Positions 26,134-56,384 of a stretch of DNA of 64,000 nt are shown piece after piece (the first letter of the stretch is position 1; each line of letters opens with the position of its first letter). The notes under the pieces are model-generated. The model had not been told where the DNA came from and searched no databases. It was given only the letters and a program-made list of their open reading frames with translations. The translations under genes were made by a program, and so were the position numbers. This stretch comes from Okeania sp. SIO2B3 (GTDB taxonomy: Bacteria; Cyanobacteriota; Cyanobacteriia; Cyanobacteriales; Microcoleaceae). Location of the stretch: positions 17,325 through 81,324 of the forward strand of contig NZ_JAAHGH010000011.1 of assembly GCF_010672525.1 (NCBI RefSeq). The letters are read 5' to 3'.

Positions 26134-29100
26134 CTACAAAACGACAGTGTAATCGTTACGTTGAATATCAAAATTTAGATTGTAATATGGGTCGCCCAAA
26201 TCCATACAAATTTGCCATTGGTCTAACAACAACATATAGTCAACCACATCATAATTTCTTTGTCTGTGTTTCTCTGATTGATGATTAATTAAAACACTAC
26301 GGGGGGTAAAGACTATTCGCTTGCCATTTTTCCTCAACTTTAAACACAAATCAACATCTTGATAATCAGAGAAAAAATGTTCATTAAAACCTCCAACCAT
26401 TTCAAAATTTTGCCTACTCACCATCAAACAATCTCGACTTACAGCAGATACTTCTCTTGCACAAACTAAAGAACCTGCATAACCATCATGGTTAGAGGGA
26501 AAACCTCGCATTACATAATCAACTTTTCCAGATTTTCCTAATACAATACCTGCGTGTTCAACAATTCCATCTGGGAAAATTAATAGTCCTCCCACGGCAC
26601 CAATATCAGGTTGTTCGGCGTAATATAAAAGATGTCGTTGCCAATCTTCAGTAACAACTTCTAAATTAGTATTGAGGAAAATAAAATATTCTCCTTGGGC
26701 AGTTTTGGCAGCCAGATTATAAGCACGAGAATAATTAAATTGCCCTGATAGATTTAAAACTTTCACCGCAGAATTTTCGATAATATTTTCTGTTTTTTCC
26801 CCACCAACTAAAATCACTTCATTTTTGGGATAAGTTGAAACAGACAAAAGATTTTTCGACCATTTATCAATATTTTCTGAAAGATTAGGAGCAGCAATAA
26901 TTAGACTAATGAAAGGATGATTATTTCTAGGTAAAGGATTAATATTTATCCGATGTTTACCTACCCCTGGTTCTGCTTTTGCTGCTAAACCAATTCTTTG
27001 TAAATGGGAGTTAACAGCAGCTTGTTGTACTACTTCAATACCTGCTTTAGCATCGGCATCTCCCGAAATACTTCCTTTAACTTGTCGCCAATGATAAAGG
27101 TGTCGAGAAATATGAGCAATTTTATTAGTTTGCTCGGAAACTCGTAACATAAACTCATAGTCTTGTACTCCATCAAATTCACTCTTAAAACCACCAGCAG
27201 CTAAAGCTAATTCTCGGCGGACACATAATAAATGACCGACATACATAACACCACGAAAATATTCGGGAGACCAGTCAGGTTTAAAGAATGGAACGATATA
27301 ATTTAACCCAGAAAAATCAATTTTATCTTCATCGGAATAAACTACATCAAATCCTTCTGCCAGTTTATTGAGACTATCTTCTAATGCTGTAGGAGCCAGA
27401 GTATCATCATGGTCTAATAAACAAATATATTCTCCTGTAGCCATATTTAGAGCTTTATTTGTAGCAGCACTAATTCCGCCATTATCTTCTGAAAGTAGAA
27501 CTTTAATTCTGGGTTCTTTTTCTGCTAAACCTGCAAGTACATTTCTAATTTCTGGTTGTTTCGAGCCATCATCAACAATACACCATTCCCAGTTAGGGAT
27601 AGATTGGTTAAGAACACTTAAAACAGTTTCCACAAACCAATCTAAAGATGAATTCCAGGTTGGAGTAAGAATACTAATAGAAGGTTTAGAGTCATCTCTT
27701 CTTCCTTCTACTAAAGATTCAGAAAAATCCCCTCTTCCTTCTTCCTCCTTGCTTCTTACTTCTATATCAGAAAAATCCCTTCTTCCTTCTTCCTTCTTAC
27801 TCCTTCCTTCTACTAAAGATTCAGAAAAATATCTTCTTCCTTCTTCCTTCTTCCTTCTTGCTTCTATATCAGAAAAATCCCTTTTTCCTTCTTCCTCCTT
27901 GCTTCTTGCTTCTATATCAGAAAAATCCCTTCTTCCTTCTTCCTTCTTACTCCTTCCTTCTACTAAAGATTCAGAAAAATATCTTCTTCCTTCTTCCTTC
28001 TTCCTTCTTGCTTCTATATCAGAAAAATCCCTTCTTCCTTCTTCCTTCTTCCTCCTTCCTTCTACTAAAATAATTTCCCAAAAATTTTCAACTGTTACTC
28101 CGGATAAACCCAATAATTCCTGTTTTGGTTTGGGCGGGGGAGTAGGATTTTTTGACTTTTGAGTAACTTCTTCTAAGGGTTTAGTCAGAAGTTTTTTTTT
28201 AGTAGTAATTGAGGTATCTGGTTCTACAGGAAATAGACTCTTGACAGGAATATTTTCTTTTTGAGATTTGAACTTTTCTAGATCGGCTTGAATTTCTTGG
28301 ATTTCTGTTTGCGATTTCTCCAAATCTGCCATTATTTCCGCTAGTAAAGGAGAGACAGAAGACTTAGATTCAGGAGTAATTTTTAAAGTAGATTCTGATA
28401 GTAAATTCTTCTGCAAAACCTCAGAGCGATCGCTATCTATTTTTTCCAACTCCTGTAAATTTTCTTCCTGCTTATTTTCTCCTTCTTCTTTAACCAAACT
28501 TTCAATTTTTTCCTGATTTACTCTGAGTTGTTCGGAGGAGCGATCGCTATCTATTTTTTCCAACTCCTGTAAATTTTCTTCCTGCTTACTTCCTACTTCT
28601 TCTCTAACCAAACTCTCAATTTTTTCCTTCCTTACTCTGACTTCTTCCTTCTCAAGAATTACCATATCTGGATAACTTCTCTTACCCACTCGTCCACACC
28701 AAGAACCATAATATTTTCCTAATACATTGAAACCAGCATTAATCAGCCACTCCAACAATAAAGACTCCAGAAAACCCATCCCTTTTTCTGGTGAATTTAG
28801 GTCTTTAGTAAAACCTTCCTGAATTCTATGAATAAGAGGTTGAGAACTCTTGCCTTCAGATATTAATTTTTCTGACTCGTGGTTAACTAAGAAACATTGG
28901 AATAAGAAACGACCACCTGGTTTTAAAACTCGATAAATTTCATCTAAATAATTACGAATCTTACTCCCACCTACCTGAGTAAATCTGGAACCGATAAAGA
29001 CAAAATCAAAACTTTTGTCGTCGTAGGGAAGTTTCAAATCTGAGTCTATCTGACGGAAATTGAAATGTGGTTTATGGCTGCTAATATTTTGCTGTGCCCA

Positions 29101-31692
29101 AGATATTAATTCCTCAGAAAAGTCATTCCCTTCATAACGACCTGGAGATTTTAAATAATAGGCTAGACCATAAGCAATATTCCCGACTCCGCAGCCAATT
29201 TCCAAAACTTCAGCAGTGGGTTGAAGACCTACTCTTTGGATAAAGTCGCCTAAAAATTTGCAGCTTCTTTGGATAAAGTTAATTGCTTTTCCTTCTATAT
29301 ATTTATCATCAGGAATTGGGAGGGATGGGTTCAATAGTTGAAATAGAATTTCTCCCTCTTTCCCTTGAAATATTGGAGTCAGAGTAATTAGAGTATTTTG
29401 GCAGTTTTGAAGTTCTGCCTTTGTCAAGGGTATTTCCAGACAAAATCTAACATTTTCAGCATTATTAAGCTTAGTCCGAACTTTTGCGACATCTGGGCTA
29501 GGTAAACCTAATTTTTGTTCAAAAGAAGTATATTCTTGACTGCCGATGAAAACTTTAAAGCTTTCTACAGAACCAAAATTGTAAGAACCTACCCATCCAG
29601 ATATGATTAATTTTTGATTGGCTTTTGCTACTTTATCTAGATGACCTATTGTTGTAATTGGTTCAATTGGCGGGATGAATTTTGATTGTTCTTGAATTAT
29701 GGGTGCTTCAGAAAAAGTTAATAGTTTTGTTTTTTCTGGCACTGTATATGGCTCCAAATCAACTACATTTTTTTCTGGTAAATCAATTCCACTTTTGCCT
29801 TCTTCCTCACTTCTAACTTCTTGTTCACTTATAATTTTTGACTTTTGACTTTTGCCTTCTTCCCCACTTCTAACTTCTTGTTCACTTCTAACTTCATTAC
29901 TTCTTCCTTCTTCCTCTCTTGGTGCGCATTCCCTCTCTTGGTCGGCGTTCCCTTGCGCCTGTGGGCGGCGCGGGGTCCGACCGCTTGCGTCTTTCGCCGA
30001 CGCGGGGTCGCACCGCTTCTTCCCTCTTCCTTCCTTTACTTTAGATAAAACCTGACCTTTACCATCTTTAAATATGGGAGTTAAAACAATTTCAGCATTT
30101 TGGAATTGTGAAATTTGTTCTGGGTTAAGAAATGCCTTGATACGAAACCTTGCTTTGTCAGAATTATGAAGATTCGGATGTAATTTTCTCACATCAGGGC
30201 TTGGTAAATTTAAGGCAGTTTCAAAATTTTCTATTTCAGTACCTGCAATAGTTAATTGAAAGCTTTTGACTGCTCCTAAATTACGAGAAACTGCCCAACC
30301 TATTAGTAATAATTCTTGGCGGTCAAATTCTGCCTTATCCAGAGAACCCAATGTTGCTAATATTTTTGTTTTTTCTGGCACTGTATATGGTTCCAAATCA
30401 ACTACATTTTTTTCTGGTAAATTAATTGCACTTTTTCCTTCCTCCTTCTTAACTATATTTTGTACTGACAAATTAATATCACTTCTAACTTCTTGTTCGC
30501 TTCTAACTTCTGACTTCTGGCTTTTGCCTTCCTCCTTCTCCCTTCTTCCTTGATTATTAACTATATTTTCTGCTGGTAAATTAATGTCACTTCTTCCTTC
30601 TTTTTGTTCACTTCTAACTTCATTCCTTCTTCCTTCTTCCTTCTTCCTTCTTCCTTCAGCTCGTAATTTTAAAGCTGCTGCATAAAGTTCCATATCTTGA
30701 CTATTAGCACTTGCCAATTCATCCATTAATTTTTTGTCTGATAAAACCTCTTTCTGAAAGTCAAGATATTCTGGATAAGGATTTCTATTTTGATAAATAA
30801 CTTGATAATCTGACCAACCAAGAAGATTTTTGAGTGCCAGTAAATCCTCTTCAAAATATTCTGTAATTCCGACAAAATCAAAATAATCCAGAGATTTGCC
30901 ATTCACACAATAAGCCATAAGATTACTGTTAATTTGAGCAAACTTCAGTAAATCTTGTTTATTTAGATAATCTTTTGTGGGATTAGATATATGGCGAAAA
31001 CAGTAATCAGAAATTAACCTGTGGATAGGTTCTCTTAACCATGTAATTCTCTTAGTATCAGGAAATAATTTATCGTACTTACCCGCGCGAAAATGACCCT
31101 CAATAACTTTAGTCTGCCAATGAATAGTAGCTGGCATATTATCTTCAAACATATTAGTTTTATCTGTCAGAACTCCCTGAGTTCCATAAACTTGTAATAA
31201 AACTTGTCTGAAAGCTGTTCCGGCTGCTTTTGGCACATGAACAGAAATAAGTTCTACTTGAGGAGTTTGGCTTGGTAAATTATTTGCTTCTGGTGTTTTA
31301 ACTAAAGCAGATAATGCAGGATTAACAGCATTTAATAAAGGTTCTCCTTCACGGTCAGCAACAAGAGGAATTAAAATAATCAAAGCATCCTTAAATTGTT
31401 GTTGCTGCTGTTTATTCATTGGCAATCTAATAATAAACCGAGCGTTATTAGCAGCAGAAATATTTGGATGTGCTTTTTTCACTCCAGGGCTAGGAAGACC
31501 TTGAGTTAATTCAAATCCTATTAATTGTTGACTACCAAATAAAACCTTAAAATTAGTTACAGACTCAGGCTCGAAAGAGAGAACCCATCCGCTTAAACAA
31601 ACAGTTTCATTTTCTATTGCTACTTGGTCTAAAAATCCTGTAGTTACTGCGAGTTGTGTAGTTTTTTTCTGTACTATTTCAACTTTTTCCAT
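26134..31692 (-). CDS. Giant sulfotransferase - GW modules - methyltransferase - double GT2 enzyme
   Basis: An 1852-residue cytosolic multienzyme. In order: GW module 1 (about 15-130); a type 2 sulfotransferase (145-345; 5'-phosphosulfate motif HVPKAAGTAF at 152-161, 3'-phosphate motif REPIHRLISDY at 220-230); a heptamer-repeat linker; GW module 2 (445-550); a second repeat linker containing a GC-rich insert; GW module 3 (680-795); a SAM methyltransferase (805-1015; LEIGCGVG at 830-837); an acidic coiled region; a repeat linker of KKEEGRR units (1211-1335); and two GT2 glycosyltransferase domains (1336-1570 with DHDD at 1427-1430, then about 1590-1830 with a weak NTN in place of DxD). It would sulfate, methylate and glycosylate a glycan from PAPS, SAM and nucleotide sugars. 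The linkers are strongly biased to Glu/Lys/Arg. The ATG at 31692 has no alternative nearby. Confidence 0.9.
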   Translation of the reverse strand: MEKVEIVQKKTTQLAVTTGFLDQVAIENETVCLSGWVLSFEPESVTNFKVLFGSQQLIGFELTQGLPSPGVKKAHPNISAANNARFIIRLPMNKQQQQQFKDALIILIPLVADREGEPLLNAVNPALSALVKTPEANNLPSQTPQVELISVHVPKAAGTAFRQVLLQVYGTQGVLTDKTNMFEDNMPATIHWQTKVIEGHFRAGKYDKLFPDTKRITWLREPIHRLISDYCFRHISNPTKDYLNKQDLLKFAQINSNLMAYCVNGKSLDYFDFVGITEYFEEDLLALKNLLGWSDYQVIYQNRNPYPEYLDFQKEVLSDKKLMDELASANSQDMELYAAALKLRAEGRRKKEEGRRNEVRSEQKEGRSDINLPAENIVNNQGRREKEEGKSQKSEVRSEQEVRSDINLSVQNIVKKEEGKSAINLPEKNVVDLEPYTVPEKTKILATLGSLDKAEFDRQELLLIGWAVSRNLGAVKSFQLTIAGTEIENFETALNLPSPDVRKLHPNLHNSDKARFRIKAFLNPEQISQFQNAEIVLTPIFKDGKGQVLSKVKEGRGKKRCDPASAKDASGRTPRRPQAQGNADQERECAPREEEGRSNEVRSEQEVRSGEEGKSQKSKIISEQEVRSEEEGKSGIDLPEKNVVDLEPYTVPEKTKLLTFSEAPIIQEQSKFIPPIEPITTIGHLDKVAKANQKLIISGWVGSYNFGSVESFKVFIGSQEYTSFEQKLGLPSPDVAKVRTKLNNAENVRFCLEIPLTKAELQNCQNTLITLTPIFQGKEGEILFQLLNPSLPIPDDKYIEGKAINFIQRSCKFLGDFIQRVGLQPTAEVLEIGCGVGNIAYGLAYYLKSPGRYEGNDFSEELISWAQQNISSHKPHFNFRQIDSDLKLPYDDKSFDFVFIGSRFTQVGGSKIRNYLDEIYRVLKPGGRFLFQCFLVNHESEKLISEGKSSQPLIHRIQEGFTKDLNSPEKGMGFLESLLLEWLINAGFNVLGKYYGSWCGRVGKRSYPDMVILEKEEVRVRKEKIESLVREEVGSKQEENLQELEKIDSDRSSEQLRVNQEKIESLVKEEGENKQEENLQELEKIDSDRSEVLQKNLLSESTLKITPESKSSVSPLLAEIMADLEKSQTEIQEIQADLEKFKSQKENIPVKSLFPVEPDTSITTKKKLLTKPLEEVTQKSKNPTPPPKPKQELLGLSGVTVENFWEIILVEGRRKKEEGRRDFSDIEARRKKEEGRRYFSESLVEGRSKKEEGRRDFSDIEARSKEEEGKRDFSDIEARRKKEEGRRYFSESLVEGRSKKEEGRRDFSDIEVRSKEEEGRGDFSESLVEGRRDDSKPSISILTPTWNSSLDWFVETVLSVLNQSIPNWEWCIVDDGSKQPEIRNVLAGLAEKEPRIKVLLSEDNGGISAATNKALNMATGEYICLLDHDDTLAPTALEDSLNKLAEGFDVVYSDEDKIDFSGLNYIVPFFKPDWSPEYFRGVMYVGHLLCVRRELALAAGGFKSEFDGVQDYEFMLRVSEQTNKIAHISRHLYHWRQVKGSISGDADAKAGIEVVQQAAVNSHLQRIGLAAKAEPGVGKHRININPLPRNNHPFISLIIAAPNLSENIDKWSKNLLSVSTYPKNEVILVGGEKTENIIENSAVKVLNLSGQFNYSRAYNLAAKTAQGEYFIFLNTNLEVVTEDWQRHLLYYAEQPDIGAVGGLLIFPDGIVEHAGIVLGKSGKVDYVMRGFPSNHDGYAGSLVCAREVSAVSRDCLMVSRQNFEMVGGFNEHFFSDYQDVDLCLKLRKNGKRIVFTPRSVLINHQSEKHRQRNYDVVDYMLLLDQWQICMDLGDPYYNLNFDIQRNDYTVVL
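27716..28070 (-). repeat. In-frame heptamer and 150-bp higher-order repeat
   Basis: On the minus strand, GAAGGAA-type heptamers alternate with TATATCAG- and AGATTCAG-containing spacers. The marker TCTATATCAG recurs at 27761, 27863, 27911 and 28013, giving spacings of 102 and 48 bases, so the higher-order unit is 150 bp (50 codons). It is translated as alternating DFSDIEARRKKEEGRR and YFSESLVEGRSKKEEGRR segments. Confidence 0.85.
29780..30020 (-). repeat. In-frame heptamer repeats with GC-rich insert
   Basis: Heptamer-like GAAGTTAGAAGTGAA units flank a GC-rich block (about 29925-30015) containing CGGCGCGGGGTCCGACCGC and CGACGCGGGGTCGCACCGC stretches. The block is read in frame as CDPASAKDASGRTPRRPQAQ within the sulfotransferase-methyltransferase linker. 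Its composition is unlike its surroundings, so it is probably a mobile palindromic element. Confidence 0.8.
30430..30660 (-). repeat. In-frame heptamer repeats after sulfotransferase domain
   Basis: GAAGGAA and GAAGTTAGAAG-type units encode EGRRKKEEGRR and EVRSEQ stretches between the sulfotransferase domain and GW module 2. A GTTGATTTGGAACCATATAC-type segment (around 30370-30420) is also repeated around 29740-29790. Confidence 0.8.
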
Positions 31693-32215: not shown

Positions 32216-34087
32216 CTATTCCCTGACTTCTGCAAGAAGCCTATTTTTTTCCAAAACTAACAAATCTTCTTTAAAAGATGAGGTACGACCACACCAATAA
32301 CCATAAGATTTTTCTAGAACATTAAACCCTCGTTCATTTATCCACTGTGATAGTAAACTTTCCCTAAAGCCAATTCCTTTCTCTGGCAAATTAATATCTT
32401 TAGTAAAACCATCTTCTATTTCATAAATAAGCTGTTGAGAACTTTTGCCTTTAGCCATGAACTGTTCTGATTCAGAGTTGATTAAAAAGCAAATTAATAA
32501 GCACCTCCCTCCAGGTTTCAAAACTCTATATATTTCATCAAGATAGTGCATAACCTCCAGACCTTGTAAATGAGTTAATAAATGAGGAATACAGACACAG
32601 TTAAAACTTTCATCAGGATAAGGAAAAGTAAAATTAATTGCTGATATTGTGCCAGTGGGATTATACAGAGGGTGATGAATATTGTGCCAGTTAAAATTAA
32701 AATTAGGTTTGCGTGTTGTAATTTCCTTTTGTACCGAGGAAATCAAATTTTTTACCATATCAAAACCTTCATAACGACCAGAAGGATGTAAATAATGAAC
32801 TAAGGAATAAGGAACAGGACCAATATTACAACCAACATCCAGAATATGGTCTGTAGGTTGTAAATCTAATCTCTGAATTAAATCTCCTAGTAATTTGAAG
32901 GAAGTACGAATAAATTGACCGCTGCCATCAATATCAGTTATTTTTATATCTTTCTCTTCCGGCAGTGGCAAAAGTGGTGCTAATACCTTTAATAAAATTA
33001 TCCCCTCACCACATTTAAATTGAGGAGTTAAAGCAATTAATGAATGCTTTAATTGGTTAATTTGTTGTTGATTTAAAAGTATTTTGAGCCGGAATCTGGC
33101 ATTACTTGCACTATCTAAACTAGGATGAATTTTTTCTACATCTGGACTGGGTATATTGAGAGTCTGTTCAAAAAAACTAAACACTTGATTACCAATCAAA
33201 ACTTTAAATCCTTCCACCATACCAGCATCAAGGGAAGCAACCCACCCAGATAAGCGCAAAACTTGATTTTTAATGACTGCCCTGTCAATAGAACCCCAAG
33301 TAAGTAAAGGATTAGTTTTTATTATTTGCTGGCTAATTTCTTGCTTTGCAGATAATAAATTTTTGAGATTTTCTTGAGTATAGTATTGTATTTTTGACGT
33401 TTTTCTCCGCGTCTCCCGCAAACTTAGTGCTTCTTGATAAAGTTCTATATCTTCCTGATTTATACTTGATATTTTATCCACTATTTCTTGATTAGATAAT
33501 ACTTCTTCTAATAATGACTTGTATTCTGGATAAGGGTTGGTATTTTGGGTTTCAAGTTTATAGTTTGGCCAGTTTAGTATAACTTTTAGTTCATGTAAAT
33601 CTTCAGGAAAAAATTCTTGAATCCCGACAAAATCAAATTCTGTTAATTTTTGCTCTTGAACAAATTTTGATTTAATTACATTCTGCATCTCTGGTTTTTC
33701 GGCGAATTCTATAAATGTCAAATTAGACTCTTTGACCGATGATAAATTTTGTTCATCACTTTCTAATAAAATTTGCCAAGTCTTCCAAAAAAAGTAAAAA
33801 GAGATTAATCTCTTGATTGGGTCTCGGAGCCAAATTATTTTTCTAAATTCTGGAAATTTATAATCATATTTATTACTAGGGAAATGACCATGAATTACTT
33901 TTATTCCTGGGTTGGGATTGGTTAACATTTTATTGCGTAAACCACCCTTGTGAGGATAGTCGAAGAAAATCTCTTCTGGATAATATATTTGCTTCAAAAC
34001 TTGTTTAAATGTTGTACCAGCAGTTTTTGGTACATGAATTGAAATAACTTTTGCCTTTACTTCTTCTAATTGATTGATTTGGCTCAT
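32216..34087 (-). CDS. Sulfotransferase - GW module - methyltransferase fusion
   Basis: A 623-residue cytosolic protein. Residues 12-225 form a type 2 sulfotransferase with HVPKTAGTTF (18-27) and RDPIKRLISFY (88-98). Residues 260-375 are a GW module (LRLSGWVASLDAGMVEGFKV). Residues 390-615 form a SAM methyltransferase with ILDVGCNIG (415-423) and the terminal signature YGYWCGR shared with two neighbours. It matches the first two-thirds of the giant protein downstream without the repeats and GT2 domains, so the two are paralogues. The likely role is sulfation and methylation of a surface glycan. Confidence 0.9.
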   Translation of the reverse strand: MSQINQLEEVKAKVISIHVPKTAGTTFKQVLKQIYYPEEIFFDYPHKGGLRNKMLTNPNPGIKVIHGHFPSNKYDYKFPEFRKIIWLRDPIKRLISFYFFWKTWQILLESDEQNLSSVKESNLTFIEFAEKPEMQNVIKSKFVQEQKLTEFDFVGIQEFFPEDLHELKVILNWPNYKLETQNTNPYPEYKSLLEEVLSNQEIVDKISSINQEDIELYQEALSLRETRRKTSKIQYYTQENLKNLLSAKQEISQQIIKTNPLLTWGSIDRAVIKNQVLRLSGWVASLDAGMVEGFKVLIGNQVFSFFEQTLNIPSPDVEKIHPSLDSASNARFRLKILLNQQQINQLKHSLIALTPQFKCGEGIILLKVLAPLLPLPEEKDIKITDIDGSGQFIRTSFKLLGDLIQRLDLQPTDHILDVGCNIGPVPYSLVHYLHPSGRYEGFDMVKNLISSVQKEITTRKPNFNFNWHNIHHPLYNPTGTISAINFTFPYPDESFNCVCIPHLLTHLQGLEVMHYLDEIYRVLKPGGRCLLICFLINSESEQFMAKGKSSQQLIYEIEDGFTKDINLPEKGIGFRESLLSQWINERGFNVLEKSYGYWCGRTSSFKEDLLVLEKNRLLAEVRE

Positions 34088-34517: not shown

Positions 34518-36434
34518 TCAGTTTTTTTTTTGCAGAATTAGCAAATCTTGATGAGTAAAAGATTTACGCCCACACCATGAACCATAATATTTCCCTACAA
34601 CAGTTAAACCACTTTCTTTTATCCAATCAATTATTAGGGATTCTTGAAAGCCTATTGTTTTTTCTGGCAGTTCTGGATCTAAACAAAAACCACCTTCTAT
34701 TTCATAGACTAAATGCTGAGAACTCTTGCCGTCAGTCATTAATTGTTGAGATTCAGAATTAATTAAAAAGCAGGCAAATAAACATTTTCCTCCTACTTTT
34801 ATAACTCGCTGAATTTGTTGGAAATAATGACGCATATCAATGCTAGACAAATGAGTAAAAAGATTACTAATACAGATCGCATCAAAACTTGCTTCTGCAT
34901 AGGGAAAGATCAATTTTTTCATCGGAATAGTTCCCTTTGAGTTATAAATAGGATGAAAAATATCCTGGTATTGAAAATTAAAGTTAGATTTTCTAGGAGT
35001 AATTTCTTGCTGTGCCCAATCAATTGCTTTTTCTGAAAATTCAATACCTTCATAACGTGCTTTAGGTGTTAAGTAATAAGTCAAGCCATAAGCAATTTCA
35101 CCTATTCCACAGCCAATATCAAGAATACTATCTGTTGGTTTGAGACCTGTTCTTTGAATTAAATATCCTAACCATTTAAAAGCATTAGACTGAAAATCAA
35201 CAGAACTATTTCTATCAATCTGACTAATGTATTCTTCAGAAGGAATCTTCCTAGAAGGATTAAAGACATCGATCAAAACAGACCCCTCGAAATTTCCCAA
35301 CATTGGGATTAAAATAATTAGGAGGTCTTGATAGCTTTCTCTATGAATTTTATTGAGAGGTATTTCTAGACAAAATCTCGCCTTTTCTGCCCCTTTTAAT
35401 CTAGGGCGGGCTTTTTTTATTCTCGGGCTTTTTATTCCTAGAGTTTGTTTAAAGTCTTTATACTCTTCACCTCCAATCCAAACTTTAAAACCACTAACAG
35501 GAATTAGAATTAGAGAAACTATCCAACCTGTTAATTGTAGAATTTGATTCTCAAGTACTACTTTACCTAAATTCCCAATAGTTAGTAATGAATTTGATTC
35601 TTCTAAGGTAGTTACCCCATCTTTCTCCCTCTCAAATACGGCTAGTGACTTTTTGAGTTTAGGAATATATCTTTGAATAGTTAAATCTTCTACTTCATTA
35701 CGATCATGATATTTAAGTTCTCCTATTTTTCTTTTGTGATTTACAGTTGCTCTCCCCCTCTTAATTTTATTTAAACTTTCTTCCATAGAGCGAGTAAAAT
35801 AATGATTAATTCTCAATTTTTTCACAGAATGTTGAGGAGAAACTTTTGCCGATAATTTTTCATAATTTTCGCTAACTGCTACTCCATCATTAACATAGAC
35901 AAAATGATGAGGAGTCATACATTCAATAGTAAACTCACTACGAACAATACATTTAAAATTGAGATTAGCCTGAAAATCCTCTTTAGCTCGTTTAGTAAAA
36001 TTTTCTATTTGTAATCCTTTCGGTTTTTTCTCATATCCTGATGTGCCAAAAATCAACCAATTAACTCCAATAGCAGGGACATCTGGGAATTCTTCTAATA
36101 TTTCTCTTAAATCATTTTTTTCTGTGGGGAATAAAAACTCATCTAAATCTATAAATGCTATCCATTTTGATTCATTTTTATACTTTTGTAGGAAATGATT
36201 ATATGCCTTCATTTGTTGACCATTTTGCACAGACCAATTTGTCAGAACTACTTCGTGATTTTCTCTATATGGACGAACAATATCAAGAGTACGATCGGTA
36301 CTATTGTTGTTGTATAAATAAAATCTTTCAACACCAACTAACTTATGAAATTCTAACCATTCTCTTAAATAAAGTCCTTCATTTTTCATAATTGCACATA
36401 CACTTAAAGTGGCTTTTTTTCTTACCTGATTCAT
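34518..36434 (-). CDS. GT92-like glycosyltransferase - GW module - methyltransferase fusion
   Basis: A 638-residue cytosolic protein. Residues 8-265 are a GT2/GT92-like glycosyltransferase (CAIMKNEGLYLREWLEFH, YNNNSTD, and the metal-binding DLDEF at 96-100). Residues 285-400 are a GW module (LQLTGWIVS). Residues 410-635 are a SAM methyltransferase with ILDIGCGIGEIAYG (437-450) ending in YGSWCGR. The GW-methyltransferase part is paralogous to those of the two sulfotransferase fusions nearby, so the catalytic head has been swapped. A GAGGAGAG lies about 6 bases before the ATG at 36434. Confidence 0.88.
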   Translation of the reverse strand: MNQVRKKATLSVCAIMKNEGLYLREWLEFHKLVGVERFYLYNNNSTDRTLDIVRPYRENHEVVLTNWSVQNGQQMKAYNHFLQKYKNESKWIAFIDLDEFLFPTEKNDLREILEEFPDVPAIGVNWLIFGTSGYEKKPKGLQIENFTKRAKEDFQANLNFKCIVRSEFTIECMTPHHFVYVNDGVAVSENYEKLSAKVSPQHSVKKLRINHYFTRSMEESLNKIKRGRATVNHKRKIGELKYHDRNEVEDLTIQRYIPKLKKSLAVFEREKDGVTTLEESNSLLTIGNLGKVVLENQILQLTGWIVSLILIPVSGFKVWIGGEEYKDFKQTLGIKSPRIKKARPRLKGAEKARFCLEIPLNKIHRESYQDLLIILIPMLGNFEGSVLIDVFNPSRKIPSEEYISQIDRNSSVDFQSNAFKWLGYLIQRTGLKPTDSILDIGCGIGEIAYGLTYYLTPKARYEGIEFSEKAIDWAQQEITPRKSNFNFQYQDIFHPIYNSKGTIPMKKLIFPYAEASFDAICISNLFTHLSSIDMRHYFQQIQRVIKVGGKCLFACFLINSESQQLMTDGKSSQHLVYEIEGGFCLDPELPEKTIGFQESLIIDWIKESGLTVVGKYYGSWCGRKSFTHQDLLILQKKN

Positions 36435-37086: not shown

Positions 37087-39816
37087 TCAAACCCAGGCTG
37101 GATCATAAATAGCATCTGAATATCCATTAATCTCAGTGGCATAAAATTCATCAATAAATTTTTCTCCTTCTTTCTGATACTGCTTGTAACGTTCTTGCCA
37201 AAAGCCACCATGTTTTTGTGATATATCTTGGCTTACTTCGTAAGCTTTTCCTCCATTCACAATTTTTTGTTTTATCTGTTCTCTAGAACGATATCTGTAT
37301 TGTCTGAGAATGAGTCCATGATTTTTTCCAAGTGCTGTGACAGGTAACTTCTTTCCCTCAAACTTTACAAGATGATGTCCCTGATCTATCTCCATACCTA
37401 ATTGCCAACGAACTATAACCTTACTGTAACCCTGACTGTGAAAAAGAGAAGTATCTTCCTTCTTTCTGTGAGTCATTCTTTTGAGAGGATTAGGTTCAGA
37501 CGAATCGTAGAATGAGCGGGGCAAATAATTTCTGTGCTGGAGACCTAGACAAAAGTGTTTTTGCCCCAATTGACTGAGAATATTTCGTAGAGGTTTGTCC
37601 AATGAAGCAATAACTTCATCAGCGTCAAATGGAAATATCCATTCTGCTCCCCACATTCTGTGAGCAAACTCAGCAGCAGCAGACATTTTTCTAAACTTAT
37701 GAAATAAAGGGTCTCTATCTTCAATTAGGTAAACCATTGCTTCTGGATAATCATCAGCAAAACGTCTAATTTCATCTGTCGTTTTATCTGAGGATAAATG
37801 ATCTAGAACTACGAATTTTGTGATGCCTTGTCGATAATTTCCAGCTAAAGTGTAGTAGATAATATCTTCTTCATCTTTCACCATTGAAACACCAGCAATA
37901 ACTGCACTTTCTTCCGATTTATGAAATATTTGCTTTTGATTTGTAAGTGATTGGTTCGGCTCTATATTTGTGATTTTTTGCAGTGTTTTTTGCCACCAAT
38001 AAGTATGACGATTTTTGCTAACAGTTTTTGTGAATTGCCAATCTATTAACAAATCTTGAGCTTGTTTATACCTTTCTCTTTGTGCATCATCCAACATCAA
38101 TATTCCACCTGGTTTTAAAAGTTTAATTGATGCCTCAAAGCATTTCATTCGATCACGACCATCTACAATAATTAAATCGAAAAATTCTTCAGGAAATTTT
38201 TCACATATTGTATGATATGGTCTTGCTGATAGCTTAATATCTACTGGATTACAATTTTTCTGTTTCTGAATCTGATTTTTTACCTGCTGAAACCACCTAC
38301 CGTCATGCTCAATAGAAGTCAGATTTTTAGTTAATTTAGATAGCCAGATAGTAGAGCCTCCACTACCAAATTCCAACACTTTAGCATAAGGTTTTTGCTT
38401 CAAGAAATTTTCTAAAAATTTGATAGCTTCTTCTGTCAATAAAGGTGTAGATCTAATGTTTAGTGATTTAGTATTATTAGTCCGGATACAACCTATTGGC
38501 ATTCGAGTTTCATCGGCTAATACTGCTTGTATTAGCCAGTTAAATTTGGGTCGTAATTTATTTACTTGGAAATCTATACTAAAACCAATTTCTTTTACTT
38601 GGGGTACTTCTGGATAACGTTTAGCTATATCAGGGTATAACTGATTAACAGATACTTTTTTCAGTATGCTACTTAATTCTACTATTTCTATAGCAACTAC
38701 AGGACTGTTTTTTCCTAATGCCCATCCAGAAATATTAATGGTATTTCTATCGCTAGTTTTTTCCTGAATTTTTTCGATTTTATATCCCCAAAATAATTCA
38801 TCATATATTGGGTGAGAGTCTGCATCATAATTTTCAACAACTATTGTTGATGTTGTTGATGATTGAACAAAAGAGTTAATTACATTCTCTTCAACTTCCT
38901 GAAAAGTGTGCCTTGATTTGGAAATTGATTTTGAATCTAGTTTTGACTTAATTTGCTCTAACTCAGACTGATAGTTATGTAATTTTTCTTTGACTTGAGA
39001 CAGGGATATATGTTGTTTTTGTTCTTTGTTGCCATTCATTTCCCAATTAAATTTTCTACCTAAATATTCTTCTAATTTTTGATTATAAGGTTGAAAGTAT
39101 TCAGCAAGAGTTGAGCGGATTTTTGGATCTATTGGCTGATAAGAAAGTTGATGATCTTTCTTTTTATTAGTTACTTGATAATTAGGCAAACCCAAAAATT
39201 CAAAAACTTCTCTTAGTGTGACATCTGGACGAGTATAAAAATCTTCACTTTTCAGAATTAAGAACTGTTCTCTGGGAAAAATACTCATCCATTTTTCTAA
39301 TTGTTCAATGTAAATCCCTCTTTCTAAATAACTATAGTTTCTATGAAATAAACTTCTATAATTTTCATCAGATAATAGTTTCTCTTTTTCTATATTCAAT
39401 CTTTCTGGTTCTTTTTCAATTGCTTGTCTGAAAGGTAAAGTTTCTCGTTTTTTACTAATTATTCGATTATGATGATAATGAGATACTGCTCTATCTACAG
39501 GATTTCTTAGAAGCACAATTAGTTTAACATCTGGTAATAAATTAAACATTCTCTGGGGAGTATGTGGGTCAACTAGATAATCTGACGTAGCTTCGCCAGT
39601 TATGAGATTTTTTCCATTAGGAATTGTGGGAAACTGAGATAAATACCAATCTACTCCTTCTACAGTTTTTCTGTTTCCCGGTTTAGAACGCCAGTTAAAA
39701 AAATGCAATTCTTTCATTGATGCTGGCAAAATTTGTGGATGCTCAATCATATAGTTATACAAGGAAGTTGTACCACACTTTTGAGCGCCTATGATGATAA
39801 AACTAGGTAAAGTCAT
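37087..39816 (-). CDS. Sulfotransferase - GW module - methyltransferase - glycosyltransferase fusion
   Basis: A 909-residue cytosolic multienzyme. Residues 3-255 are a type 1 sulfotransferase, like the heparan-sulfate N-sulfotransferase domain (IIIGAQKCGTTSLYNY, LLRNPVDRAVSHYHH). Residues 265-300 are coiled-coil. Residues 340-445 are a GW module (INISGWALGKNSPVV). Residues 455-610 are a SAM methyltransferase-like domain (VLEFGSGGSTIWLS, then LIIVDGRDR). Residues 635-900 are a GT2/GT92-like glycosyltransferase (GVSMVKDEEDII, FPFDADEV with D731 and D733). The methyltransferase differs from that in the three genes to its left. The start ATG at 39816 immediately precedes the P-loop. Confidence 0.9.
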   Translation of the reverse strand: MTLPSFIIIGAQKCGTTSLYNYMIEHPQILPASMKELHFFNWRSKPGNRKTVEGVDWYLSQFPTIPNGKNLITGEATSDYLVDPHTPQRMFNLLPDVKLIVLLRNPVDRAVSHYHHNRIISKKRETLPFRQAIEKEPERLNIEKEKLLSDENYRSLFHRNYSYLERGIYIEQLEKWMSIFPREQFLILKSEDFYTRPDVTLREVFEFLGLPNYQVTNKKKDHQLSYQPIDPKIRSTLAEYFQPYNQKLEEYLGRKFNWEMNGNKEQKQHISLSQVKEKLHNYQSELEQIKSKLDSKSISKSRHTFQEVEENVINSFVQSSTTSTIVVENYDADSHPIYDELFWGYKIEKIQEKTSDRNTINISGWALGKNSPVVAIEIVELSSILKKVSVNQLYPDIAKRYPEVPQVKEIGFSIDFQVNKLRPKFNWLIQAVLADETRMPIGCIRTNNTKSLNIRSTPLLTEEAIKFLENFLKQKPYAKVLEFGSGGSTIWLSKLTKNLTSIEHDGRWFQQVKNQIQKQKNCNPVDIKLSARPYHTICEKFPEEFFDLIIVDGRDRMKCFEASIKLLKPGGILMLDDAQRERYKQAQDLLIDWQFTKTVSKNRHTYWWQKTLQKITNIEPNQSLTNQKQIFHKSEESAVIAGVSMVKDEEDIIYYTLAGNYRQGITKFVVLDHLSSDKTTDEIRRFADDYPEAMVYLIEDRDPLFHKFRKMSAAAEFAHRMWGAEWIFPFDADEVIASLDKPLRNILSQLGQKHFCLGLQHRNYLPRSFYDSSEPNPLKRMTHRKKEDTSLFHSQGYSKVIVRWQLGMEIDQGHHLVKFEGKKLPVTALGKNHGLILRQYRYRSREQIKQKIVNGGKAYEVSQDISQKHGGFWQERYKQYQKEGEKFIDEFYATEINGYSDAIYDPAWV

Positions 39817-40446: not shown

Positions 40447-41382
40447 ATGTGTTCGCAGTTAAATCCAGAAACAACAGCAGTAGAAAATTTACAACAGGCA
40501 GAAATCTATTTGGCCCAAGGAAAATTAGCTCTAGCCCAGGCAGCTTGTCAAAAAGCCTTAGTCGAATTACCAGACTTTGCCCCTGCATACAAAACACTAG
40601 GAAACATTAGTCTGGCTATGGGTCAAAAAGAAGAAGCTATGAGTTGGTACACAAAAGCTCTTGCTGCTCAACCTGATTGGGCAGAAGTCTATGCCAATAT
40701 CGGCAGTCTATATGGGATGCAAAAGCAGTGGCAGCTAGCCATCGCCTCTTATCAAAAAGCTATCAGTCTCCAGCCAAACATTGCTGGATTTTACCGAAAC
40801 TTGGCAAAAGTTTGGCAGGTGGTAGGTCAGCCACAGTTAGCTGCTGAGTGTTCTTATCAGGTATTAACTTTAGAGCCAGAGTCGGTGACAGCATCAGAAT
40901 GTTTAAGTCTGGGTAAAGCTCTTTTTGACCATCAGAAGTTAACTGAAGCCATGGTTTGTTATGGCCGAGCAATTGAGTTAAATCCTAATTTATTTAGAGC
41001 TTATCATTTATTAGGAGATGCTTTGGCAAATCAGGGTAGTTTGGATGAAGCAATTAGTTATTATCAAAAAGCTGTAAAGCTCCAACCAAATACATGGATA
41101 GCTTACCAAAAACTAGGGAAAAGTTTACTAGAAAAAGGTAATTTTTCTGCAGCAATTATTGCTTTTGAGCAGGCGATAGAAATCAATCCTAATTCTCTAT
41201 GGTCTTACCAAAAATTAGGTGTGACTTGGATGAAACTAAAGAATTGGGATGCAGTAATTAATGCTTACCGTAAGGCGATAGAATTTAATTCTCAAAATGG
41301 TTTTTTTTACAACAATTTGGGATTAGCTTTATCTGAAAAAAAGCAATGGTCAGAAGCAGTTTATGCCTCCTCAAGACTGTAG
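40447..41382 (+). CDS. TPR protein, probably C-terminally truncated
   Basis: A 311-residue protein made of about eight 34-residue tetratricopeptide repeats (AYKTLGNISLAMGQKEEAMSWY and the like), a protein-protein interaction scaffold. It has no catalytic domain. The last repeat breaks off as SEAVYASSRL and then stops. In another frame from 41364 the sequence continues as MPPQDCRNNVNLALGKDSW..., which looks like part of a different protein. It is probably the surviving N-terminal part of a TPR-enzyme fusion like the gene at 42098. Confidence 0.75.
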   Translation: MCSQLNPETTAVENLQQAEIYLAQGKLALAQAACQKALVELPDFAPAYKTLGNISLAMGQKEEAMSWYTKALAAQPDWAEVYANIGSLYGMQKQWQLAIASYQKAISLQPNIAGFYRNLAKVWQVVGQPQLAAECSYQVLTLEPESVTASECLSLGKALFDHQKLTEAMVCYGRAIELNPNLFRAYHLLGDALANQGSLDEAISYYQKAVKLQPNTWIAYQKLGKSLLEKGNFSAAIIAFEQAIEINPNSLWSYQKLGVTWMKLKNWDAVINAYRKAIEFNSQNGFFYNNLGLALSEKKQWSEAVYASSRL

Positions 41383-49982: not shown

Positions 49983-52292
49983 ATGGGAATATTTTTGGTC
50001 AGGTCATCTTTGACACCCTTTGACAAAAATCAGCAGGAAAAATTAATTAGATCGGGCAAACAGACAATTCATATCCAGTCTCAGTCTGATAATTCCTACT
50101 TTTTGGCTAATCAAAAAATTGCCTTATTTCATTTTGCTACAGATAATTATTTCTACTCGACAAAAGACCAAATATATGTGAATCAATCAGAGAGTAAAAT
50201 TATCTCAGTCACCATAATTCAAGGCTATTGTTGGTCATCCACAACAATAGGTAGTACAGGCAAAATATTAACAGCTTTTGATATTTACTTACTCCTATCA
50301 AAAAATAACTTTGATGCCGAGAAAGTTAGAGATTTATTGGCAGGAGAATATGCCATAATCCACGCTTCAGATGATGGTAATGTCATCGCCTTTAACGACA
50401 GATTAAGTATCGAACATATTTACTATTCAAAAAATAAAAATATCTCCTCAATAACCAACCGTATAGCATTATTACCTCACATTGATGACCAGTATGAATA
50501 TAACTTAGAAGCTATGCTTGCCTTACCAGTAGTAGGGTATATGCTGGGAGAAGACACATACATAAAAGGAATTTCTAGACTCGCACAAGGAGCAGTAATT
50601 AAACTGCAAAATGGAGACCTAAAAGTTAATGAAAATAAAGATTGGATTTATCAAAATGCTCCTAGTAAAAGCGAGGTGAAAAATCCTGAAGTTTTTAACA
50701 GTATTGTCGAGCAAGGTATTAATGAATGTTTGGCTAATATTAAAGCTATATTTAGTAGTGCAGATAATATCCCACTGGCACTCACCGGAGGAAAAGATAG
50801 TCGATTAATTTTAGCCTTAGCTTTGCAAGCTGGTTTAAGAGATAAACTACGTTTATTTACCAATGGAATTGAAGAACATCCAGATGTAATTGTAGCCAAA
50901 AAATTAGCTAATCATTTAAAACTTCCTCACACTACAAATAAACCAGGTAGGTTTAGAGAACCCACCTTAGCAGCAGAAGAATTACTCAGAAGATTAGCAA
51001 CTCATGTATTTCAAAATGATGGAATGTTTGGTGCGTGGGACCTCAAGCAAGGAAAACAATGTGTCAAAGGTTTAGTATTAGCTGGTTTTATTGGAGAAGT
51101 ATTTAAAGGGTATCTGAAAAAGCCTTTTAATTATCCAACAATGCCTAATCCCGAACAGATGATTTCCGCTCATGGTCCTTTCGATCCTTTAGGAATATTA
51201 AAAGAGGATATTCGGAGAAAAATTTCCACAAAAGTTCTCAACAGAATGGAAAATTATTTAGGGTTAGGCTCAGAATTTAATGATATTCCAGACCTATACT
51301 ATATAAAAGAACGTATTCCTAATTGGTTAGGAACAGCTAGAAGAAAAGATGCCGATAGTAATCAAGTAGTAATGCCAATTAATTCTACAGGTTTAATTAG
51401 ATTAGCCTTTGCTCTTAATGCTCCTCAAAGACAACAAGAATTAATACATTTTGCGATGTTACGTCGCCTCGAACCAAGTTTACTAGAGATACCATTTGCT
51501 CAACAAACTTGGCACAGAGGTTTAACTGCTTATGGAGCTTCAAACTCAATATTTAAAGACCCAATTCCTGCTCCTAAAAATTTACCACAACATGGAAGTT
51601 GGCAACATACAATTAATAAAAATCCCAAATTTAGAGCAGCCATCTTTGAAATTTTAGCTGACTATACACAATCTCCTTTATGGGAATTAATAGACCGACA
51701 AAAAACACTAAATACAATAAAAACCGTGGGATTTAATATGCCACAAATGATTAGTGCTTTTGGTTTAATGACAATTTTCTTTAAAGTTCACAATATCAAG
51801 ATTCCTCAAAAAGCTTTGTTTGCTAATAGTTCAGGATTTAAAACAGAAGATAGTGTGATTATTAAAGATGTTAAATCAGGAAAATTATTTAATTTTAATC
51901 AAGACAAAAAAAATCGGCTGACTGAAAAAATTGATAGTAATATAAAGCCAATAATAGTTGCTAGAAAAGCAATGGCATTGATACCAGGAGGAGAAAATAC
52001 AGGAGAATTATCCTTTGAAGGATTTGTTGATTCTGAAAATAGTAATTTTATCCCTGGTTGGGTATGGTGTCTGGATTTTCCTTTCATGCAATTAACAGTT
52101 GAAGTTCTGGAAAATGGCAAGATTATTGATAGAATAGTTGCTGGCCAATTTCGAGGAGATTTAAAAAAAGCAGGTAAAGGAAATGGACATCATGCTTTCC
52201 GCTATGATACTAAAGGTAAGCCAGTTGAAAGTCTCAGATTTAGGGTAATGGATACTGCTTTTGAATTAAAGAAGTCAGGAGGAAGAAAGTAA
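49983..52292 (+). CDS. Asparagine-synthetase-like protein with C-terminal GW module
   Basis: A 769-residue cytosolic protein. Residues 1-215 resemble the glutaminase-type N domain of asparagine synthetase B but lack the N-terminal catalytic Cys (it starts MGIFLV). Residues 245-640 hold the ATP-pyrophosphatase domain with the PP-loop LTGGKDSRL (about 264-272). Residues 678-765 are a GW module (FIPGWVWCLDFPFMQLTVEV). Family members amidate amino acids, peptides or uronic acids. In a glycan cluster, amidation of a sugar acid is an attractive inference, with ammonia not coming from this protein's own glutamine site. An AAAGGA precedes the ATG. Confidence 0.85.
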   Translation: MGIFLVRSSLTPFDKNQQEKLIRSGKQTIHIQSQSDNSYFLANQKIALFHFATDNYFYSTKDQIYVNQSESKIISVTIIQGYCWSSTTIGSTGKILTAFDIYLLLSKNNFDAEKVRDLLAGEYAIIHASDDGNVIAFNDRLSIEHIYYSKNKNISSITNRIALLPHIDDQYEYNLEAMLALPVVGYMLGEDTYIKGISRLAQGAVIKLQNGDLKVNENKDWIYQNAPSKSEVKNPEVFNSIVEQGINECLANIKAIFSSADNIPLALTGGKDSRLILALALQAGLRDKLRLFTNGIEEHPDVIVAKKLANHLKLPHTTNKPGRFREPTLAAEELLRRLATHVFQNDGMFGAWDLKQGKQCVKGLVLAGFIGEVFKGYLKKPFNYPTMPNPEQMISAHGPFDPLGILKEDIRRKISTKVLNRMENYLGLGSEFNDIPDLYYIKERIPNWLGTARRKDADSNQVVMPINSTGLIRLAFALNAPQRQQELIHFAMLRRLEPSLLEIPFAQQTWHRGLTAYGASNSIFKDPIPAPKNLPQHGSWQHTINKNPKFRAAIFEILADYTQSPLWELIDRQKTLNTIKTVGFNMPQMISAFGLMTIFFKVHNIKIPQKALFANSSGFKTEDSVIIKDVKSGKLFNFNQDKKNRLTEKIDSNIKPIIVARKAMALIPGGENTGELSFEGFVDSENSNFIPGWVWCLDFPFMQLTVEVLENGKIIDRIVAGQFRGDLKKAGKGNGHHAFRYDTKGKPVESLRFRVMDTAFELKKSGGRK

Positions 52293-54863: not shown

Positions 54864-54878
54864 TTATAGAGTTAAATA

Positions 54879-56384
54879 CTAAGATTTTTCTAGAGATTTT
54901 TTGATATTTTGAAACTTAGACTTGATTTGTTCTAGTTTGTTTCGTGCTGATTTTGTTTGATTCACCGCATTAGGATTAGTTGATATTAATGGTGGTTCAG
55001 TTTTAACTTCAGGTTTAGTAATTTTTGGTAAAGGAGATAGTTTTTCTTCAGCAGTAAGACTATAACCAAATTCTTGTAAAGCTTCTTGGCAAACTTCAGT
55101 ACATAAAGCTTGTAGAGAAGGTTCCAAATCATTTCGCCAGCGTCCAATTGATTCTTGAGGATTAGCAGAAGTGCGATGTCTTTTTAACTGCTTTGTATCT
55201 TCAGATGCTTTTTCCAATACTTTAGAAATAGTTGAACTACTATTATCTAAATGCAAATACTCAAAGATAGAACTTAAAGTTTGTTCCGGGGCTAAAATTA
55301 AATCTTCATAGCGTACCAGATGTGCTTGTTCTTTTCTTTCTCTCCATAATTGAAGTATATGAAAAGCGGCAGATTTAACTCCTCTTTGAATATATTCGCG
55401 ATCGCTTTTAAAACGTTGACGGCCAAAATCAACATATCCCCTCTTGGCATTGAAAGCTGCCACTGAGCAAGCCATATCTCGAAAATCACGAACTAGAATA
55501 ATTTCTCGTGCTTGAGGATAAATTTCAAGCAATAGTGTTCTATTTAATCTTAGAAGAAACTTTTCTACAAAGTAAAAGTTAGAATTATTATGCAAGAGTG
55601 GGGTCAATACTTTACCTTGCCCAATAGCTATATTTTCATAGAACCGATCTATATTTTGACGACAAAAATCAGCTAAATTTTCTATGTAATCAAGTCCTAG
55701 CCAAGAAGAATTTAAACAGCTATTAATGTTGTGATTATGATAGGGATTTGGCCCTGTGCGATAAAACTCATCATAAAAGTAAGTAGGAGAGAAGTCTACT
55801 GAGTTACTTGGCTGTGAAAGAACTGCCAACATTTGCATCCAATATTGAGATACTCGAATTTCATAGGGATGAATCTGACTTGTAACAATTGCTGGATGCT
55901 GTGAAAGTAACCGCATGATCCAAGTGCTTCCTGATCGCCCTGAAGATGTCATCAATAAAGGTTGCAACTTAGATTGATAGTTTGAGTGTAGTCGCTGACG
56001 ACGATATTTAATAACTCCAATTGAGATAGTGCTTTGATTTTTAAGTACGGCTTGTATATTTAACTCACCCTCTAATGGCAGTCCAATTATTACCACTTCT
56101 ATTTGAAAACCACAATCTTTAACTCCAGAGACTTGTGGATAGAGTTTGGCTACACCAGGACGATTTATACTGACAGTAGCTTTGCGTAGAAGTCTACCTT
56201 CACTAAGTAATTGAACTTCTACAGCTTTGGAGTGTTTACCTAGTATCCAACCTGAAACGTAAATTGTATAGGTATTAGTTTTGCTTCTTTTTTTAGGTTG
56301 GTCTATAGCAAAACCCCATAATGCTTCTGTATCAAGTTCAGCGCGATGGATATCTAAAATTTCAACTATAGCGTTTTCACTCAT
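54879..56384 (-). CDS. GW module - sulfotransferase
   Basis: A 501-residue cytosolic protein. Residues 30-135 are a GW module (YVSGWILGKHSKAVEVQLLS). Residues 140-420 are a sulfotransferase of the Sulfotransfer_1/3 type, with SSGRSGSTWIMRLLSQHP (5'-phosphosulfate loop, near 146) and LVRDFRDMACSV (3'-phosphate motif, near 297). A Lys/Pro-rich tail and short coiled-coil close the protein. It is the fourth sulfotransferase of the cluster, in the order opposite to its neighbours (module first). Confidence 0.9.
   Translation of the reverse strand: MSENAIVEILDIHRAELDTEALWGFAIDQPKKRSKTNTYTIYVSGWILGKHSKAVEVQLLSEGRLLRKATVSINRPGVAKLYPQVSGVKDCGFQIEVVIIGLPLEGELNIQAVLKNQSTISIGVIKYRRQRLHSNYQSKLQPLLMTSSGRSGSTWIMRLLSQHPAIVTSQIHPYEIRVSQYWMQMLAVLSQPSNSVDFSPTYFYDEFYRTGPNPYHNHNINSCLNSSWLGLDYIENLADFCRQNIDRFYENIAIGQGKVLTPLLHNNSNFYFVEKFLLRLNRTLLLEIYPQAREIILVRDFRDMACSVAAFNAKRGYVDFGRQRFKSDREYIQRGVKSAAFHILQLWRERKEQAHLVRYEDLILAPEQTLSSIFEYLHLDNSSSTISKVLEKASEDTKQLKRHRTSANPQESIGRWRNDLEPSLQALCTEVCQEALQEFGYSLTAEEKLSPLPKITKPEVKTEPPLISTNPNAVNQTKSARNKLEQIKSKFQNIKKSLEKS

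Follow-up and report, generated by a model that had tools for sequence, protein, structure and literature searches.

Nine copies of a protein module of about 100 residues, here called the GW module, lie in seven proteins of one locus of the cyanobacterium Okeania sp. SIO2B3, within a stretch of 64,000 nucleotides (contig NZ_JAAHGH010000011.1, positions 17,325 to 81,324; hereafter the window, whose own numbering is used throughout). Sequence profiles place the nine copies in one superfamily, which is named in no library we searched. At somewhat less than even confidence, we propose that the GW module is a non-catalytic, immunoglobulin-like (Ig-like) binding domain docking the glycan enzymes of one locus on a shared partner. 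Placed at the N-terminus, at the C-terminus or between catalytic domains, it would let glycosyltransferases, sulfotransferases and methyltransferases dock. Our first guess for the partner would be a growing cytoplasmic lipid-linked glycan, and our second a common protein scaffold.

Among the translated open reading frames (ORFs) of the window, the nine segments are 98-115 residues long and span 27 kb. Their hosts are P0001 (26134-31692), P0005 (41981-47992) and the ORFs starting at 32216 (P0002), 34518 (P0003), 37087 (P0004), 49983 (P0006) and 54879 (P0007); P0001 carries three copies and each of the other six proteins one. The original prediction, made from the sequence alone, had described a segment of about 100 residues with an SGW motif that recurs about nine times, and all nine were found in the seven reading frames it named. 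Six of these proteins lie where it had put them, while the start it gave as 42098 is an internal ATG of the ORF starting at 41981. The modules fall into three subgroups and are supported by blastp between segments and by profile searches, with structure models in addition for E and G:

31300..31644, minus strand: module A1 (subgroup I), N-terminal in P0001
30037..30360, minus strand: module A2 (subgroup I), P0001
29311..29655, minus strand: module A3 (subgroup I), P0001, immediately ahead of the methyltransferase
32960..33304, minus strand: module B (subgroup I), P0002
35241..35585, minus strand: module C (subgroup I), P0003; near A1-A3 and B, barely reached by subgroup-II profiles (E 0.25, 0.82)
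38467..38799, minus strand: module D (subgroup II), P0004
44075..44389, plus strand: module E (subgroup III), P0005
51996..52289, plus strand: module F (subgroup III), C-terminal end of P0006
55989..56327, minus strand: module G (subgroup II), N-terminal in P0007

A G-W pair is invariant across the nine segments. It ends a hydrophobic strand and is followed about 30 residues later by [R/S]-P-D-[V/I]...[Y/H/F]-P...[G/R]-F. The motifs LPSPDV..HP and ARF, which had been ascribed to the copies in the first three proteins, are indeed subgroup-I traits, from which A1 (SPGV), A3 (VRT, VRF) and C (KSPRI, ARP) deviate.

Within subgroups, homology is evident from single sequences. Segments of subgroup I are 35-46% identical by blastp (E 7e-21 to 2e-35), D and G of subgroup II 35% (E 4e-21), and E and F of subgroup III 30% over 66 residues (E 7e-10). 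Across subgroups the blastp matches are weak (best G-A1 at 1.6e-5 and D-E at 1e-3); in alignments led by G or E, identity between window modules from different subgroups is no more than 13-21%. Because single-sequence blastp between subgroups was too weak to decide, profiles were used. With relatives added to each subgroup, hhalign gave probabilities of 97.6% for I-II, 96.4% for II-III and 80.2% for I-III, against at most 0.81, 3.68 and 5.73%, respectively, in controls with reversed and 19 column-shuffled templates. A profile from 38 subgroup-II-type sequences matched subgroup-I modules in relatives with E-values as low as 4.7e-8; for the window's own copies the values were 1e-4 to 0.25 (computed for a nominal database of 100,000), and 12,580 shuffled ORFs gave no match. 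A larger subgroup-II profile was weaker on the window's subgroup-I modules (9e-4 to 0.82); across all loci it put 27 of 74 subgroup-I places below 1e-3.

Searches of the whole 10-Mb genome of the strain point the same way. At E<=0.01, alignment A5, built without subgroup I, produced 10 matches, namely six subgroup-II places and four of the five subgroup-I modules (A2 at 1.7e-6, A1 at 1.8e-6, B at 3.1e-5 and A3 at 6.4e-4); module C was not reached at this threshold. Alignment A9, made of subgroup-III and proteobacterial rows with none from the subgroup-II set, found E, F and a subgroup-II module at C1, elsewhere in the genome (5e-6), and no other match. An iterated profile was seeded with E and F and grew by taking in relatives, among them subgroup-II modules from other genomes. 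It matched both G (3.7e-9) and D (4.6e-7), neither of which was among its rows. It left the window's subgroup-I modules unreached even at E<=10, and subgroup I is therefore attached to the superfamily through subgroup II. A two-row subgroup-III profile again linked II and III by hitting subgroup-II places found by A5 in three genomes (G393, G447 and G354). On decoys at E<=1, the final profiles matched no more than one of 63,300 shuffled ORFs and no reversed ORF out of 3,165. The weakest homology link is the direct one between I and III, and C is joined mainly via its likeness to the other subgroup-I copies.

The fold of the GW module is likely an Ig-like beta-sandwich, as the original prediction had it. 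Models were made with AlphaFold2 for G and E as targets only, subgroup I entering as alignment rows. The G model, from 36 rows of subgroups II and I, has a mean predicted local distance difference test score (pLDDT) of 91.1 and a predicted template-modelling score (pTM) of 0.82, and is all-beta, with seven strands and one short helix after the fourth (E-E-E-E-H-E-E-E). The E model (pLDDT 76.4; E-E-E-E-H-E-E) repeats this order of elements up to the sixth strand, in keeping with a shared fold, although its nine-row alignment holds two rows of III and seven of II and is hence not independent of subgroup II. Foldseek matches of G in the PDB are to Ig-like, fibronectin type III (FnIII) and macroglobulin domains (best E 5.4e-3, template-modelling (TM) score 0.49); among the 50 listed are FnIII-like modules of CbhA (3pdd) and parts of an amylase (4aef) and of deacetylases (4hd5, 6go1). 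The all-beta model and the kind of match both favor the Ig-like assignment, while the matches themselves are weak, at E 5e-3 or worse. CBM21 domains make up four of the top ten PDB matches of the E model (E 0.05-0.28, TM 0.52-0.54). Among predicted viral proteins, G is best matched in structure by the endolysin of an Enterococcus phage (E 2e-4).

The original prediction knew of no named family for the module, and this was borne out against Pfam, NCBIfam and PDB sequences. With curated cut-offs (24,736 Pfam and 18,950 NCBIfam models), a Pfam search of 32 modules and a search of both libraries with 39 modules of subgroups II and III (16 of them proteobacterial) gave only chance-level matches of one or two members. 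Subgroup I was scanned as full-length window proteins only; in the whole window proteins no Pfam or NCBIfam family falls in the modules among the matches listed (the first 25 families for P0005 in Pfam and for P0001, P0003 and P0005 in NCBIfam). Searches of PDB sequences with subgroup-II and subgroup-III profiles returned chance matches only. A PHROG family of unassigned function, phrog_35916, matches 14 of 32 modules (best 8.9e-7); phage tblastn with three module queries and one viral-contig scan found no relative. We found no described module of this kind in the open-access literature, which does not prove its absence since most subscription journals lie outside that scope.

The GW module is not confined to the window. 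By profile searches the genome of the strain holds 13 copies: the nine of the locus, one at C1 on a TPR-GT2 protein, and three at C195; the count omits a weak match at C43 (E 0.2). Two of those at C195 are in a 2395-aa sulfotransferase-glycosyltransferase protein, and the third is a subgroup-II module (G000:C195:479100-479384) in a 382-aa ORF (L147:16246-17391), about 6 kb from the modules of the larger protein. Only three of the 39 Sulfotransfer_3 stretches in the genome are on proteins found to carry the module, which is therefore not a general feature of sulfotransferases. Counting the strain itself, the A5 profile found the GW module in 90 of 148 related genomes, a two-row subgroup-III profile had matches at E<=0.01 in 25 of the 148, and, in a phylum-wide sample of 386 genomes, a two-row profile designated A2 (distinct from module A2) detected it in 14. 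Beyond the cyanobacteria, a single-sequence search with module E gave matches on plasmids from Paracoccus (1e-7) and Azospirillum (5e-7 and weaker), among others, many of the 75 records possibly being noise at the limit of E 5. In eight plasmid loci the profiles found 16 modules in 11 ORFs, including ORFs beyond the original matches, with annotated products of six glycosyltransferases, three hypothetical proteins and one methyltransferase, one ORF being unannotated. On pSymB of Sinorhizobium meliloti, a genetically tractable model bacterium, a 349-aa ORF (L140:5566-6612) has one module. Subgroup-II modules as tblastn queries against phages and plasmids found nothing.

In total 202 module ORFs, read stop to stop, were collected, of which 121 are complete and 68 remain after removal of close copies. 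Those 68 hold 83 modules: 24 N-terminal, 14 C-terminal, 39 internal and six in proteins with little else. More than one module is present in 10 of the 68. Family counts cover 67 ORFs, the longest (2395 aa) having been scanned separately. Among the 25 commonest families, which are those listed, the partners include Methyltransf_23 (20 ORFs), Glycos_transf_2 (14), TPR (13), Glyco_tranf_2_4 (10) and Sulfotransfer_2 (9), with WbsX, GT61, GT11, FkbM and GXM/IRX15 seen singly. The glucuronoxylan-methyltransferase-like GXM/IRX15 domain (PF21729) was observed in the module-bearing Okeania proteins L120:12800-15538 (2.7e-44) and L121:8680-11262 (9.5e-47). In five module ORFs, of 183-208 aa, there is little room for anything else than the module. 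A 435-aa protein (L110:922-2226) has TPR repeats and two subgroup-III modules with no recognised enzyme domain, making it a candidate scaffold. A crude hydropathy scan found no hydrophobic segment in 67 of the 68 ORFs or in any of the seven window proteins, suggesting a cytoplasmic location for the module proteins.

The enzyme partners within the window are diverse. By Pfam and NCBIfam, the order of domains is A1, Sulfotransfer_2, A2, A3, methyltransferase and two GT2 in P0001; Sulfotransfer_2, B and methyltransferase in P0002; GT92, C and methyltransferase in P0003; Sulfotransfer_1, D, Methyltransf_24 and a GT2-type domain in P0004; TPR, E, GT2 and Glyco_trans_1_2 in P0005; an asparagine-synthase-like region and F in P0006; and G and Sulfotransfer_3 in P0007:

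30682..31263, minus strand: Sulfotransfer_2 of P0001, residues 144-337 (PF03567, 8.7e-8)
28912..29208, minus strand: class I methyltransferase of P0001, residues 829-927 (PF13649, 1.3e-17), a paralogue of those of P0002 and P0003 (47-50% identity)
27319..27675, minus strand: first GT2 domain of P0001, residues 1340-1458 (PF00535, 8.9e-36)
26248..26772, minus strand: second GT2-like domain of P0001, residues 1641-1815 (PF13712, 4.3e-6)
33434..34054, minus strand: Sulfotransfer_2 of P0002, residues 12-218 (PF03567, 1.6e-10)
32498..32842, minus strand: methyltransferase of P0002, residues 416-530 (PF08241, 7.3e-10)
35844..36401, minus strand: GT92 of P0003, residues 12-197 (PF01697, 4.1e-28)
34788..35126, minus strand: methyltransferase of P0003, residues 437-549 (PF13649, 6.7e-13)
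39181..39804, minus strand: Sulfotransfer_1 of P0004, residues 5-212 (PF00685, 6e-23)
38086..38376, minus strand: Methyltransf_24 of P0004, residues 481-577 (PF13578, 9.2e-6)
37594..37878, minus strand: GT2-type domain of P0004, residues 647-741 (PF13704, 1.4e-9)
42149..44050, plus strand: TPR array of P0005, about residues 57-690, limits approximate (PF13414, 6.9e-137)
44729..45280, plus strand: GT2 domain of P0005, residues 917-1100 (PF00535, 6.8e-17)
46646..47035, plus strand: Glyco_trans_1_2 of P0005, residues 1556-1685 (PF13524, 1.8e-39); a second stretch also passes
50316..50936, plus strand: asparagine-synthase-like region of P0006, residues 112-318 (TIGR01536, 1.7e-10; PF00733)
55245..55961, minus strand: Sulfotransfer_3 of P0007, residues 142-380 (PF13469, 3.6e-15)

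The asparagine-synthase-like region of P0006 scores 40.5 bits with TIGR01536, far below the cut-off of 267, and 20.3 with PF00733, whose cut-off is 21. P0001 and P0005 also have long, charged, low-complexity linkers between domains (EEGRS and VKSEEEV-type). The module had been thought to be attached to at least seven unrelated enzymes. Several distinct enzyme classes are indeed present, but seven is too many: the methyltransferases behind A3, B and C are paralogues, 47-52% identical to one another, and module and methyltransferase were therefore duplicated as one unit in P0001-P0003. The sulfotransferases of P0001 and P0002 are also 38% identical. By our own count, the independent associations of module and enzyme in the window are probably nearer five.

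The genes around the module have been rearranged among relatives. Okeania sp. SIO1I7 has syntenic proteins that share 93-98% identity with P0001-P0004, and the syntenic Okeania relatives show rearrangement, with fusions and splits around the module. One relative (G389) has a 1481-aa FkbM-GT11-module-GT2 protein between the counterparts of the window's ORF at 57 kb and its methyltransferase at 53 kb; no orthologue of P0007 was found in the stretches of this genome compared. In O. hirsuta a P0003-like protein is fused via a subgroup-II module to a GT61 protein resembling the window ORF 57747-60653. At L126:7050-8144 an ORF with a subgroup-I module (151 aa) and one for a methyltransferase (213 aa) share a reading frame interrupted by a stop, as in a split or broken gene.

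If a module packed only on its own enzyme, its sequence should follow the enzyme class, and if it had a common target in the locus, its sequence should follow the locus. One test, confined to subgroup II, compared 41 modules from 19 loci (those fetched whole and the window), each matching over 80 model positions or more at E<=1e-10; proteins were called dissimilar if they had no blastp similarity (E<=0.01) outside the module. Same-locus pairs on dissimilar proteins had a mean identity of 38.2% (median 34.7%, n=21) and between-genome pairs one of 31.8% (median 31.7%, n=637; Mann-Whitney p=0.017); when locus labels were shuffled over ORFs 2,000 times, the same-locus mean was never reached. In one locus, the modules of a GXM-type/Methyltransf_24 protein and a GT61-GT92-methyltransferase protein are 70% identical; other within-locus pairs are a Sulfotransfer_2 and a GT2-type protein (60%) and a Sulfotransfer_3 and a TPR-GT2 protein (54%). 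A module tree, with too few columns to resolve deep branching, served only as a guide to individual pairs. The likeness within loci is suggestive only as a sign of a common target.

Docking on a shared partner is also favored by the nine copies in one locus, out of 13 in the genome, by the joining of the three subgroups in profile comparisons, by the whole-genome matches of A5 and A9, which fall at module places only, by the confident all-beta model of G, and by the modules that are terminal or nearly alone. The original prediction had the module targeting these enzymes to a common glycan or scaffold. Such targeting would gain indirect support from the within-locus likeness in subgroup II and from the TPR-plus-module protein with no recognised enzyme, but not from the pooled test of all subgroups. 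Several points weigh against this proposal. In the pooled test (100 modules, one gene split over two frames still among them), same-locus pairs on dissimilar proteins were no more alike than between-genome pairs (130 against 3,247 pairs, p=0.55), a result not significant because several subgroups may occur in a single locus. The test was narrowed to subgroup II after this result had been seen; the pairs in the narrowed test are few and not independent, its loci were picked because they contained more than one module, and much of the difference comes from four pairs of 54-70%. The same pattern could arise by local duplication or recombination between neighbours. Foldseek of G gave no PDB match at E<=0.001, the best ones being generic Ig-like domains, and the CBM21 likeness of E is weak (best E 0.05). 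The three subgroups are only 13-21% identical, and therefore the modules need not share one ligand. A bolder version, to which we give a low probability, is that the GW module may be a locus-specific 'address tag', with subtypes spread among the unrelated glycosyltransferases, sulfotransferases and methyltransferases of one cluster and each subtype recognising that cluster's nascent glycan or scaffold.

Three other readings were considered. The module may have been carried passively by local duplication and recombination of neighbouring modular genes, likeness within loci being a by-product. The joint duplication of A3, B and C with their methyltransferases, the fusions and splits around modules in Okeania relatives and the pooled test are consistent with this, while the subgroup-II pairs on otherwise dissimilar proteins argue against it, as does a module that is recognisable across many partners and so probably under constraint; we consider it rather doubtful. 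A structural spacer, an Ig-like domain that merely separates and orients catalytic domains within the chain without an external partner, appears unlikely. Ig-like spacers are common in multidomain carbohydrate enzymes, 39 of the 83 modules are internal, and P0002, P0003 and P0004 each have the module flanked by a catalytic domain on either side. However, the 24 N-terminal and 14 C-terminal modules join nothing and six are nearly alone, and the G-W, R-P-D-V and G-F residues kept over many partners suggest more than a spacer, though they may be just core residues. Alternatively, the modules may bind one another or one protein scaffold, such as the TPR proteins of the locus, in a multienzyme complex with the glycan left unbound. 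The TPR array fused to the module in P0005, a TPR ORF at 40447-41382 similar to the P0005 array of relatives, the TPR matches in 13 of 67 module ORFs and the L110 protein fit such docking, but three divergent subgroups in one locus speak against a single self-association surface and TPR ORFs (identified by eye) with no detected module are also nearby; we consider it quite unlikely. With glycan docking, scaffold, spacer and passive spread all considered, binding of a shared partner is ranked first, still with less than even confidence, and the data do not decide between them.

Elsewhere in the window, genes identified by eye include two similar multi-domain kinase/histidine-kinase genes at 81-5393 and 5582-9975. 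The second copy is seemingly divided into ORFs 5582-7114, which starts almost identically to 81-5393, and 7168-9975. TnpB-like (IS605-type) frames are at 14287-14715, 16375-17733 and 24062-25316, some apparently fragmentary. Downstream of the locus are, again by eye, a WecA-like glycosyl-phosphotransferase and a further sulfotransferase-like ORF (L142:13761-14873 and 15209-16162). No Wzx, Wzy or co-polymerase was recognised by eye, without a family search, in the window or among ORFs of at least 200 aa in the 17 kb upstream and 40 kb downstream.

Should its role prove to be docking, the GW module would be a biosynthetic-side, unannotated counterpart to the carbohydrate-binding modules of degrading enzymes. 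Through it, genes for many sulfotransferases, methyltransferases and glycosyltransferases that are so far unassigned would be tied to particular surface glycans, and it might serve as a tag to steer decorating enzymes to a chosen polysaccharide. Were the 'address tag' version true, module sequence would predict which cytoplasmic enzymes serve the same polysaccharide, in both cyanobacteria and Proteobacteria. Even if the module is a mere spacer, naming the superfamily would fix domain boundaries in many large proteins.

Listeria GW repeats form an SH3-type barrel and are found in secreted or surface proteins. The GW module does not appear to be of this kind, given its predicted all-beta model with Ig-like matches, the lack of a Pfam GW or SH3 match among 32 modules and the lack of hydrophobic segments in the seven window proteins. 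Among cyanobacterial clusters, the Okeania locus resembles the xss cluster for synechan, a sulfated exopolysaccharide of Synechocystis, in combining sulfotransferases with glycosyltransferases; in the parts of that report available, these are separate genes in xss, Wzx/Wzy and a co-polymerase are present, unlike what was recognised by eye at the Okeania locus, a shared accessory module is not mentioned, and abundant sulfotransferases are noted in marine Trichodesmium (PMC8205485).

In its predicted all-beta fold and Foldseek matches, the GW module is like the bacterial Ig-like and FnIII-like accessory domains of carbohydrate enzymes. In contrast to those, it has no Pfam, NCBIfam or PDB sequence match, and it is found on apparently cytoplasmic biosynthetic enzymes rather than on secreted hydrolases. 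CBM21, known from subunits such as PTG that direct enzymes to glycogen, is a small sandwich with a polysaccharide-targeting role; its likeness to the E model in the four PDB matches above is weak (E 0.05-0.28), and it is absent from the 50 listed matches of the better model, that of G, and the modules have no Pfam CBM match. In polypeptide GalNAc-transferases, whose lectin domains differ from the GW module in being beta-trefoils on eukaryotic Golgi enzymes, a non-catalytic glycan-binding domain fused to the transferase directs the enzyme to partly made substrate, much as we propose for the GW module.

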